Below are positions 30,957-35,189 of a DNA stretch of 64,000 bases, piece after piece. The first letter of the stretch is position 1; every line of letters starts with the position of its first letter. The position numbers and the translations under genes were made by a program. The notes beneath the pieces were generated by a model, which was not told where the DNA came from, did not search any database, and worked only from the letters and a program-made list of their open reading frames with translations. This DNA comes from Microthrixaceae bacterium (GTDB taxonomy: Bacteria > Actinomycetota > Acidimicrobiia > Acidimicrobiales > Poriferisodalaceae). The stretch covers positions 1 to 64,000 of the forward strand of contig WTFX01000007.1 in the NCBI GenBank assembly GCA_011523825.1. Reading direction: 5' to 3'.

Positions 30957-31079
30957 CCGTGGCAGTCGGAGTGCCCCTGCGGCATTCCGGACCCGCAGCC
31001 TCCCGCGAGTGGCGGTGCCCGTTCGCCGTCTCGCTCGCACTGACGACGTGGGGGAGACGTGCTTGAGGAAGATCACGAC

Positions 31080-32858
31080 GTGACCGACGATGATCTTGCC
31101 GCTCTCGAGGTGATCTACCGCGTCATGTGGGAAGACGAGGGCTCCGGGCTGCACAAGCATGTTGCCCGCAGCTTTCGGACGTGGGCCCAGATCCAGCACC
31201 CGCACCTTGACGTTGCTGACGTCGAAGGTGACAACGGGGATGGCGGCCACATTGCACAGGAGAACGGAACCCGCGTCGACCTGACGCGGGCCACCCGCAC
31301 CAACGGCGGCGTCACCACGACGACGCTGGAACTCGCCCAGCACGCTGCGCTGGGCAGGTCGGTGGTCAGAATCCGCGTGCTCAGCGGCAACGGCGAAGCG
31401 TGGGTGTGGGTGGATGTCGAGGCACCTCCTCTTGCTGCAGTGCCGGTGAGCCTGGGCTCAGTCGATCCGGGAGTCTCCGCTGCGGCCGGCTCGGACTCGG
31501 GGCAGTCGCGCTGGGCACAACTCCGCTCGACAGGGGCTGAGTCGCTCGTGTCCGAGCTGCTCGACACTGCCCACCGGCGGGGCGGACGGCCCCACCTCGG
31601 CCGCGAACCGCTGACCACGTCACCGGTGCCCATCCGTGATGCCGAGCACGCCAAGGCGATCCGCAATGCGGTGCTGTCGCCCGACCGTCCGGTCCCGTAC
31701 CTGGTCCTGGCGTGGGATCCCATCAATCCCAACACGGCACTCGGCGACATGACCCGGCGAGCGCAGAGCGCAGCGTCCCAAGTCGCCGGTCTGGCCCGCG
31801 TCTTCGTCATGCCGCTGGAGACGCTGACGCCGTTCCAGCGCCTGATCGGCGGCGAGATGGACCTGGAACCCGGCGAGGCCCGGCTGTACCTGCCAGGTCA
31901 GCACGAGCCGCACCGGCACCGCACCCTCGCCAAGGAGGTGGTGCGTTCGGACCCGCATCAAGCCGGACGCTGGGCAAGTCAGCTGCTGAGTCTTGCCATG
32001 GTCGAGCGTGAGCCGCCCACCCTCTTCAGCCAGTCTCAGGCCGAGCTCGGCAGCCAGCGCAGGGCGCCCGAGCTGGCGTCTGGGTCCGGTCTTCAGGAGC
32101 GCATCGAGGCGCTCGAGTCCGAGCGTGACGATCTGTGGGAAGCGCTGTTCGAGACACGGGAGCAGCGACAGGCAGCCCGGGATCAGCGCGACGAGATGTC
32201 CCAGCAGGTCCTCGACATGCAGGACGAGCTCGAACTGGCGCAGCTTCGCACCGAGGAGCTGCAGGAGAAGCTCATCGACAAGGAAGACCAGATGGTGGAG
32301 ATGCTGGTCCGAGTCGGTGAAGCCGGCACCCCGATGGTCACCGATGCCGCAGGGAGGAAGTACCCGCCGGTGACGTCGGTGAGCCACGCGCTGCAGCTCG
32401 CTCGGGCCAACCTCGTCAAGGTCGAGATCCCGCCCGAGATCGACCAGCACGTCGCCGAGCTGGACAACTCGATCGAGGCGCGGTCATGGGCCCGCAGCGT
32501 GTTCGACGGGCTGCTCGCACTGGAGGCCTACGCACACTCAGGTGCCGACTTCGGCGATTTCCGGGACTGGTGCAAGTCGAGCAAGCATCCGCGCAAGTGG
32601 TTTGCGAACTCGAAGAAGCTGGCCATGCGCGAGTCCGAAGAGGTGATGAGACGACCCGAGCTGCGACGCCTGCGGGAGATGCCGGTGTCGGCCCGGGTCA
32701 GCGACGCAGGCCACATCGTCATGGAAGCGCATCTCAAGCTGTCCAACGGCGGGCTCGCACCGAGGCTCTACTTCCACGACGACACCGGCCGCAACACCGG
32801 CAAGGTGCATGTCGGCTACGTCGGCCCGCACCTGCCCACCAAGCGCTTCAGGTCCTGA
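31080..32858 (+). CDS. orphan coiled-coil protein of unknown function
   Basis: 592 residues from the GTG that follows GAGGAAG by eight bases; a GTG 21 bases upstream is poorly spaced. Residues about 1-240 are globular; residues about 340-430 are a strongly heptad-patterned coiled coil (ERIEALESERDDLWEALFETREQ and following). The C-terminal region contains ARSVFDGLLALEAYA and a beta-rich end RLYFHDDTGRNTGKVHVGYVG. No enzymatic motif is recognised and the last segment resembles a conserved terminal module of unnamed actinobacterial proteins. It stands alone between a PEBP gene and a convergent gene, with no operon partner. Confidence 0.8.
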   Translation: MTDDDLAALEVIYRVMWEDEGSGLHKHVARSFRTWAQIQHPHLDVADVEGDNGDGGHIAQENGTRVDLTRATRTNGGVTTTTLELAQHAALGRSVVRIRVLSGNGEAWVWVDVEAPPLAAVPVSLGSVDPGVSAAAGSDSGQSRWAQLRSTGAESLVSELLDTAHRRGGRPHLGREPLTTSPVPIRDAEHAKAIRNAVLSPDRPVPYLVLAWDPINPNTALGDMTRRAQSAASQVAGLARVFVMPLETLTPFQRLIGGEMDLEPGEARLYLPGQHEPHRHRTLAKEVVRSDPHQAGRWASQLLSLAMVEREPPTLFSQSQAELGSQRRAPELASGSGLQERIEALESERDDLWEALFETREQRQAARDQRDEMSQQVLDMQDELELAQLRTEELQEKLIDKEDQMVEMLVRVGEAGTPMVTDAAGRKYPPVTSVSHALQLARANLVKVEIPPEIDQHVAELDNSIEARSWARSVFDGLLALEAYAHSGADFGDFRDWCKSSKHPRKWFANSKKLAMRESEEVMRRPELRRLREMPVSARVSDAGHIVMEAHLKLSNGGLAPRLYFHDDTGRNTGKVHVGYVGPHLPTKRFRS

Positions 32859-32909: not shown

Positions 32910-34037
32910 TCAGTTCGACGCCCCTTGGGCGGTCTGGCGGTCGCCCTGGGGATCGCGGCGCGACACGAAGCCGTTGAGGTCGCAGGCCTCGCGCACCGGC
33001 GCGGACATGTCGTAGGTGCCTGGATCCAGCGGGGTGCCGGTGCCGTCGGCCACGCGGGTCATCATGTGGAAGTTGGCGCTGACGGCGACCGCGTCGACCA
33101 TGACGTCGGGGCCGGCCGCCTCAGTGAGGGCGGCCCTGGCTGCCGCCATCTCGGCGGGATCGCCTTCCCACATCGCCTCGGCGATCCGGGCCAGCAGGGC
33201 GCCGTGGGGCACGCCGCCGTCACCATTGCCCGAGCCGTTGACGGCCTCGTAGCTGACGTCCAGGTCCTTGCTTTGGCCGCTCAGACCGAGCAGCAACGCA
33301 TGTGCAGAAGTTCAGTAGAAGCACTCGTTGAGCTTGGACGTGCGCGCCGCCAGCACTTCGATCTGCGGGCGAGTCAGCGAGTTGCGGTCGGACACCACGT
33401 CGCCCCGTACGCGCTCCATGGGCACGTACTGGGCGTCGGACAGGATGAACAGTGCTTCGTTCTCGGCCGGCACGGCGCTGAGCGCCTTGATGACGTTGGG
33501 CATCTTGAGTTCGGCCGTGGGAACCCAGTGGTACTTGACCGCCGCCGGCGCCCCCTCCCGCCCCGGCGGGCCGTCGGTGGGCTCGTCCAGCTCGATGCGA
33601 GGCAGCTCGAGTGCGTCGGCGAACCGGTCCACGCAGTTGGACTGGGCGACCAGGCCCACCAGCTCCACGTAGGCCAGCGGATCCACGCCGCGGTCGATGA
33701 TCGACTGATACCAGTCCTCGGTCAGCGTGCCGGGGTGATTGGTGATGCGCCAGATGGCGTCGACGGCTGCGGTGGGCAGCGGGCCATCGGGATCGACGAG
33801 GCCATCGATGCTGCTGGGCTGCACCCACGGCGGCAGCGAGCCGCCGTCGTCGGTGCGATGGTCGCGTGCTGCACGCACCTGGCGGACGATCTCGGCACGC
33901 TGGGCCCCAGTCCACCAGGTACCCGGCCGCGACCAGCGCGCAGCGATCTCGCCGTGAGCAGCCGCCAGATCGTCCCTGATGGGCAGCGCGACGTCATACG
34001 GGCGGGCCGGTGTAGCCGGTGCAGTCGCGATGCTCAT
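32910..34037 (-). CDS. AhpD-like (carboxymuconolactone decarboxylase fold) candidate selenoprotein with in-frame UGA
   Basis: If the in-frame TGA at 33312-33314 is read as selenocysteine, the gene encodes 375 residues. The start has GGAGAAG six bases upstream. Two AhpD-type helical modules are visible; in the second the catalytic motif reads E238-C239-F-Y-U242-T-S-A-H246, exactly E-C-x-x-C-x-x-x-H with the second Cys as UGA. The downstream part (LLLGLSGQSKDLDV, ARIAEAMWEGDPAE, VDAVAVSANFHMMTR) continues the same frame and family. AhpD-like redox proteins reduce peroxides or disulfides. It is divergent from a DyP-type peroxidase. A pseudogene with a nonsense mutation is the alternative. Confidence 0.8.
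33270..33314 (-). promoter_or_regulatory. SECIS-like hairpin immediately after the UGA
   Basis: In the message, 24 bases after the UGA, an apical loop GGUCU is closed by the six-pair stem CUGCUC/GAGCGG, extended by UUG/CAA past one bulged C and two more pairs past a mismatch. Loop sequence with two leading G residues, bulge and distance fall in the bacterial SECIS range known from fdhF-type elements. This would recruit SelB to decode the UGA. Confidence 0.65.
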
Positions 34038-34259: not shown

Positions 34260-35189
34260 ATGCCGACGCCGCAGAAGGCCATCTTCAACGAGATGGGCGC
34301 CAACCAGTGGTATGTCCACCTGAGTCGCGTCGAGGGCGCTGACCTCGGTGTCATCAAGTCCGTCATCGCGGCCACCAGGGCTGCCGCAGACGAACAGGGC
34401 ATCAACCTGACCGTCGGCATCGGTCCCGGCCTGCTGCCGGATCTGACCGACGACGTGCCCGACGACTTCCAGGAGTACGTGACCGTCAAGTCTGAGGATG
34501 GCTCGGGGCGCGAGGCCAAGGGCACGCAGGAAGAGCTGCTGCTGTGGCTGAACCACGACGACAAGGACAAGGTGTGGAAGGTGCAGTACGACGCCCGCAC
34601 CGCGCTGGCCGGCCACATGGCCGTCGCTCGTGAGACGCCCACGTTCATCTACGGCGACTCGCTGGACATGACCGGCTTCAAGGACGGCACCGGCAACCCC
34701 GCCGACGAGGACCAGCCCGCCGTGGCCATCGTGCCCGACGGCGATCCCGGAGCGGGCGGCAGCCACATCATCGCCCAGCGCTGGGTGCACGACCTCGACG
34801 GCTGGAACGCCCTGTCGGACGATCAGCAGGAGAAGAACTTCGGGCGCAAGAAGTATCCCGAGACCGACAAGACCGACACGCAGGAGCCCTACAGCCACCT
34901 CAGCCACGTTGAGCTGCGTGCGGATGGCAACCACGGCAACGAGGGCAGCGACAAGATCAACGAGATCGCCCGCCGCTCCACGCCGTATGCATTCCATGAC
35001 GGCACCGTGGGGCTGTACTTCATGGCGTTCTGCAAGGACCAGGCCCCGCTGCGCCGCCGCCTACGCCGGATGTACGGGCTCGACGACGCCAATGGCGTGC
35101 GCGACGCCATCACCGACTTCTCGAACCCGGCCTCGGGCTCGTTCTACTTCGCCCCCAGCGAAGAGACGCTCGACGCCATCACGGGCTGA
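34260..35189 (+). CDS. DyP-type haem peroxidase
   Basis: 309 residues from an ATG preceded by AAGGAG. The diagnostic GxxDG motif is GFKDGTGNP near residue 139, and the proximal haem His is in SHLSHVEL near residue 215; a distal Arg follows. There is no Tat signal, so it is the cytosolic form. DyP peroxidases use hydrogen peroxide to oxidise dyes, phenols or other donors. Its divergence from the AhpD-like selenoprotein candidate over a 222-base promoter gap suggests a shared oxidative-stress response. Confidence 0.93.
   Translation: MPTPQKAIFNEMGANQWYVHLSRVEGADLGVIKSVIAATRAAADEQGINLTVGIGPGLLPDLTDDVPDDFQEYVTVKSEDGSGREAKGTQEELLLWLNHDDKDKVWKVQYDARTALAGHMAVARETPTFIYGDSLDMTGFKDGTGNPADEDQPAVAIVPDGDPGAGGSHIIAQRWVHDLDGWNALSDDQQEKNFGRKKYPETDKTDTQEPYSHLSHVELRADGNHGNEGSDKINEIARRSTPYAFHDGTVGLYFMAFCKDQAPLRRRLRRMYGLDDANGVRDAITDFSNPASGSFYFAPSEETLDAITG

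Follow-up and report, generated by a model that had tools for sequence, protein, structure and literature searches.

Relationship to Known AhpD-like Proteins

Selenoproteins related to AhpD are already on record. In its listing of selenoprotein families, a 2026 review includes NCBIfam NF041238 (AhpD_rel_CFYUT) as "AhpD-related protein (hypothetical protein 1, Sargasso Sea metagenome)" with a CxxU site, together with some TIGR01926 peroxidase-related AhpD proteins that are likewise CxxU selenoproteins (PMC13188914). The Sargasso Sea family comprised four sequences with a possible redox role, according to the part of that report that deals with it (PMC1088965), and no function is recorded for NF041238 in the passages of the literature that concern the family. 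The gene described here lies at positions 32910–34037 on the minus strand of a 64,000-nucleotide stretch of contig WTFX01000007.1 (the window) from Microthrixaceae bacterium, assembly GCA_011523825.1, an acidimicrobial genome assigned to the Poriferisodalaceae, and contains an in-frame UGA. It is another member of the catalogued selenoprotein family NF041238. With Cys put in place of selenocysteine (Sec), the product scores 350.4 bits against a curated cut-off of 175; residues 20–358 match profile positions 1–356 of 357, across the UGA, and the CFYUT motif is at residues 239–243. Because the family is catalogued and named for this motif, the kind is already known and not new; an earlier note on this DNA had itself mentioned AhpD-like selenoproteins reported from marine metagenomes. 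The CFYUT motif and CxxU site are common to both, and nothing sets the window gene apart from the family; the window member has a DyP peroxidase gene as its head-to-head neighbor. No literature was found that links Poriferisodal- names with selenoproteins.

Other profiles fit less closely. The Pfam CMD match is sub-threshold (18.8 versus 23 bits), and with TIGR01926 (peroxid_rel) the score of 43 bits falls short of the 81.8-bit cut-off. The single-domain TIGR01926 proteins have a related C-terminal domain and the same Sec position, but the window protein has an extra N-terminal domain.

The frame starts at an ATG at 34037, ends at a TGA at 32910–32912 and contains a single internal TGA, at 33312–33314, which is codon 242 of a 375-residue product with the local sequence N-E-C-F-Y-U-T-S-A-H. 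The earlier note had joined two frames across this TGA into one AhpD-like protein and denied that it marks a gene end. Both points hold: the family match spans the site, and homology to relatives is present N-terminal and C-terminal of it. Downstream of the TGA, the differences among nine same-genus sequences number 156, 128, and 913 at codon positions 1, 2, and 3, respectively, a pattern that shows that this stretch evolves as coding DNA. By the sequence evidence this is a genuine selenoprotein gene, and the UGA at 33312–33314 is very likely read as selenocysteine. The whole account, in which a two-domain AhpD-related protein has its UGA decoded as Sec by way of a conserved hairpin and carries out peroxide-reducing CxxU chemistry, is one that we hold with considerable confidence.

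Domain Organization and Active Site

The product is predicted to contain two AhpD-like domains: an N-terminal domain (residues 20–147; 33597–33980, minus strand) that has no CxxC and a C-terminal domain (residues 167–347; 32997–33539, minus strand) that includes the CxxU site. A search of the PDB with the family profile placed AhpD-like structures on top (6k40, 7.9e-16), with Mycobacterium tuberculosis AhpD (1gu9) at 0.0064. In the active-site descriptions of two such proteins, the proton relay comprises Glu36, Cys48, Tyr50, Cys51, and His55 in Pseudomonas aeruginosa PA0269 and Glu118, Cys130, His132, Cys133, and His137 in M. tuberculosis AhpD (PMC3141380). The counterparts in the window protein are Glu227 (codon 33357–33359), Cys239 (33321–33323), Tyr241, Sec242 in place of Cys, and His246 (33300–33302), all encoded on the minus strand, and predicted helices at residues 223–236 and 240–256 correspond to the AhpD helix pair. 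The relay spacing of 12, 2, 1, and 4 residues is identical in the three proteins, Glu227 preceding Cys239 as Glu36 precedes Cys48 and His246 following Sec242 as His55 follows Cys51, so that all conform to Glu-x11-Cys-x-Tyr/His-(Cys or Sec)-x3-His. Therefore, Sec242 occupies the place of Cys51 and Cys133, the second catalytic position of CxxC, as the earlier note had proposed. The window protein differs from the other two in having Sec for the second Cys and two predicted AhpD-like domains per chain. Glu227, Cys239, Sec/Cys242, and His246 are invariant in an alignment of 22 members.

By analogy with AhpD chemistry, Sec242 would be the peroxidatic residue of the C239-x-x-U242 pair and Cys239 its predicted partner, with Glu227, Tyr241, and His246 acting as an AhpD-type proton relay. 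Organic hydroperoxides would be reduced with formation of a selenenylsulfide with Cys239, which some dithiol donor would then resolve. It is possible, although on balance unlikely, that the selenoprotein has no peroxidase role and is instead a thiol-disulfide oxidoreductase with proteins or small thiols as substrates, or else a reductase of the dehalogenase-like type; the five proton-relay positions, spaced exactly as in PA0269 and M. tuberculosis AhpD, argue against this.

The tandem arrangement recalls the Sestrins. In the relevant sections of two reports, Sestrin2 is described as carrying its redox Cys in the N-terminal half, the C-terminal half serving a different function (PMC11429811, PMC4674687), and bacterial Sestrin-like fused AhpD proteins are described from Corynebacterium ureicelerivorans and Comamonas aquatica (PMC11429811); the words selenoprotein and selenocysteine are absent from the latter article. 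The window protein resembles a Sestrin in that its chain is modeled with two AhpD-like domains, but an N-terminal redox Cys and the acidic hinge DDYDY that replaces the C-terminal active site are not found: here the CxxU site and its helix pair are C-terminal, and identity to human Sestrin2 is 9%. The N-terminal half is predicted to be a second AhpD-like domain lacking CxxC that packs with the first in a pseudo-dimer like that of Sestrin2, except that the redox site is C-terminal. This predicted tandem build ties the family to the Sestrins and to the question of how one half of a fused AhpD pair could be freed for another role.

Conservation of the UGA and the Selenocysteine Machinery

In the same-class sample, NF041238 is found above the cut-off in 74 of 395 genomes. 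The 81 class loci that were fetched consist of the copies listed above the cut-off and one below it (G223). The CxxU codon is TGA in 80 of these loci, 78 of which came from one motif search and two of which, bearing the motifs CHY and CRF, were included manually; the remaining locus has TGC. Within the family to which the window belongs, the cut-off is exceeded in 37 of 39 genomes, and all 30 further loci with a full match (the window's own excluded) have both the TGA and the hairpin; this set includes L199, which has an N in the preceding codon, and L230. Random frameshifts in close relatives, which the earlier note had named as grounds for abandoning its proposal, were not seen; the relatives carry the same TGA. 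It is conservation across relatives that lifts the hairpin above chance.

The genome (3.32 Mb in 31 contigs, 95% complete) encodes the Sec synthesis and insertion system that the earlier note had said it must contain (selA, selB, selC, and selD). SelA scores 327.7 bits; SelB scores 275.2 bits, above its cut-off, with a C-terminal match in the same frame; SelD scores 359.8 bits and has one in-frame TGA in GAG-U-ACK; and tRNA-Sec scores 66.3 bits with Rfam and is assigned the anticodon TCA by ARAGORN. Of the 74 class genomes with NF041238 above the cut-off, 67 have a SelA match at E ≤ 0.001 (G323 only at 7e-4), compared with 200 of the 321 other genomes (Fisher p = 8e-7, relatedness not being controlled). 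The SelA/SelB/SelD/tRNA-Sec system would decode the UGA under the guidance of the downstream hairpin as a predicted selenocysteine insertion sequence (SECIS) element: SelB would bind the hairpin, with its apical GGUCU and G at the second loop base, and Sec would be placed at residue 242.

The SelD gene (L010, G000:C28:31140-32090, minus strand) is itself a candidate selenoprotein gene, with GAG-UGA-ACK and its own hairpin after the UGA.

The Hairpin Downstream of the UGA

The predicted SECIS element (33276–33294, minus strand) is a hairpin of 7 bp, GCUGCUC-GGUCU-GAGCGGC, read from 33294 to 33276, with the apical loop at 33283–33287 beginning 25 nt 3′ of the UGA. It thus has the position and the small, G-containing apical loop of a bacterial SECIS element. 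Its core, CTC-N-G-(G/T)-NN-GAG, is found in the equivalent place in 79 of the 80 Sec loci of the class, and all 78 aligned sequences have G as the second base of the loop.

To assess synonymous constraint in the 80 Sec genes, we asked how uniform the third base is in each codon column and set this against codons drawn from the synonymous codons of the same gene; such draws leave relatedness unmodeled, but relatedness is common to all 315 columns. The six highest z values among the 315 belong to codons +8 (12.9), +9 (10.3), +11 (9.0), +10 (8.7), +6 (6.8), and +12 (6.4) after the UGA, the third bases of which all fall inside the hairpin, and the next highest is 5.4, at column +59. Leu +8 is encoded by CTC in 80 of 80 genes, although of the 2366 Leu codons at other positions in the same genes only 993 are CTC. 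Constraint on synonymous sites therefore peaks at the hairpin. The SECIS-like hairpin described in the earlier note is in this respect real and conserved and has the apical GGUCU reported there; it is not, however, unusually stable as a single sequence.

A shorter AhpD-like gene in the same genome (L210, G000:C31:394517-395026, minus strand) scores 129.6 bits with TIGR01926; its single in-frame TGA lies in NDCHY*VVHH and precedes a hairpin, CGGCGC-GGUCU-GCGCCG, with the same apical loop as that of the window gene. L210 is a candidate for the second AhpD-like selenoprotein of the genome.

Cysteine Forms of the Protein

Homologues with Cys at residue 242, which the earlier note had suggested looking for, exist in two Microbulbifer genomes, one Pseudomonadales metagenome-assembled genome (MAG), two Acidimicrobiia-type MAGs, and one genome of the class sample; the UGA aligns with TGC or TGT in L082 and L100–L104. 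The class form, L082 (G247), carries TGC, lacks the hairpin, and comes from a genome with SelA. In L103 (L103:404-1294, an Acidimicrobiia MAG) the Sec position is TGC, the hairpin core GCTCCGGGCGAGC is kept, and the genome has SelA; this may be a recent change from Sec to Cys. The closest Cys forms come from five genomes, of which three have SelA and two, those of Microbulbifer, do not. Among Cys-type sequences in general (80 loci of named genomes), which are mostly other AhpD-like proteins, 99 of 100 are without the hairpin core, the exception being L103, and the codon is TGC in 63 and TGT in 37. The Sec/Cys exchanges in L082, L103, and L100–L102 are natural pairs with which to test what selenium buys.

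Alternatives to Decoding as Selenocysteine

Several observations weigh against decoding of the UGA as Sec by way of the hairpin. SelA is unmatched in 7 of the 74 class genomes with NF041238, these being 56–90% complete. The single-sequence stability of the hairpin is no better than that of shuffled sequences (z = 0.08 for a 60-nt fold and −1.43 for a 31-nt piece), and no Rfam match in its vicinity attains a gathering score. Covariation is weak (0.107 versus 0.083 in shuffles, 2 of 500 of which reach 0.107) and is surpassed in slid controls, in which moving the partners by +3 gives 0.130 and moving them by −1 gives 19 cells changed on both sides as compared with 15; pair 22–38 is broken in 48 of 78 sequences. 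One same-family copy, L229 (G405:C30:4600-6800), has a 345-residue frame with no stop, from which the entire stretch with the CxxU site is missing; it is either a natural copy that lacks an active site or an assembly artifact, and the same genome has another copy with the TGA. Finally, Cys forms occur beside SelA in G247 and in the genomes of L102, L103, and L104, which indicates that the fold does not require Sec.

The alternative that the UGA is a real stop, giving a 241-residue protein and perhaps a further protein whose translation restarts downstream, at a TTG (33296), appears very improbable to us. A TTG-started frame does exist at 33296, and public annotations carry the N-terminal part alone: five database relatives named Candidatus Poriferisodalis are 73–88% identical to the product over its N-terminal 62–64%, four of them being 237 residues long and one 276. 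(From these relatives it would follow that the window's genome is close to Candidatus Poriferisodalis and lies within the Acidimicrobiia.) However, a stop here would fall inside predicted helix 240–256 and part Cys239 from His246, the NF041238 profile runs across it, and it would leave the constraint on the hairpin unexplained. Because the public records of most of the closest relatives end at the UGA, the protein is stored there without its catalytic end. The same 237-residue records, in which public gene callers end at the TGA, might be taken to mean that the codon is a sequencing error or recent nonsense mutation in a pseudogene or mis-assembled Cys gene; this reading is refuted by the sharing of the TGA among 80 of the 81 class loci and all 30 further same-family loci with a full match, as well as by the coding pattern that follows it, and has a negligible chance of being correct. 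Genome-wide reassignment of UGA to Trp, Cys, or Gly, for which nothing was found beyond the open frame itself, is hardly credible, since 30 of the window's 36 long non-overlapping frames (some perhaps not genes) close with TGA, as does the selenoprotein gene's own frame, so that TGA is a stop in general, and the genome has tRNA-Sec and SelA/B/D.

Neighboring Genes and Related Loci

The selenoprotein gene is separated by 222 bp from a gene for a DyP-type peroxidase (34260–35189, plus strand; TIGR01413, 143.8 bits) in a head-to-head arrangement. The earlier note had called this proximity notable; the adjacency is real but is a trait of the lineage. It recurs in all nine other same-genus loci (L200–L207 and L230), a tenth same-genus genome (G422) having no NF041238 match above the cut-off, as compared with a single one (L208) of the 21 other same-family loci and none of 80 class loci outside the window's genome. 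Typing of neighbors by family profile covered DyP only. This distribution suggests that DyP and the selenoprotein form a lineage-specific redox pair rather than a family-wide partnership.

In 15 sister-genus genomes (L212–L226), a second NF041238 copy is head-to-head with a short AhpD-like gene, and both have TGA at the CxxU site. The pair is present in 15 of the 17 loci fetched, the 15 having been picked because both genes were listed; the same-genus loci L227 and L228 have no such short AhpD-like partner. The match to the short AhpD-like gene contains up to three TGA codons and, in one case, a TAG.

A more speculative proposal is that the protein is a bacterial, selenium-armed counterpart of the Sestrins, a fused AhpD pseudo-dimer in which the N-terminal half, its redox motif lost, would bind a ligand or partner and the Cys-x-x-Sec of the C-terminal half would reduce organic hydroperoxides, working with DyP in this sponge-symbiont-like lineage and with the second, head-to-head AhpD selenoprotein in the sister genera. 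We consider this doubtful as a whole, but its tandem, Sestrin-like build and both of the head-to-head arrangements merit follow-up.

In the public proteins P0122 and P0123, the part that follows Sec is joined to a domain that matches Pfam PF12697/PF00561 (alpha/beta hydrolase), and P0085, which shares their contig count and longest contig, seems to be the N-terminal portion of that gene. On the other side of the selenoprotein gene, a convergent plus-strand frame at 31059–32858 encodes 599 residues with a coiled-coil-like middle.
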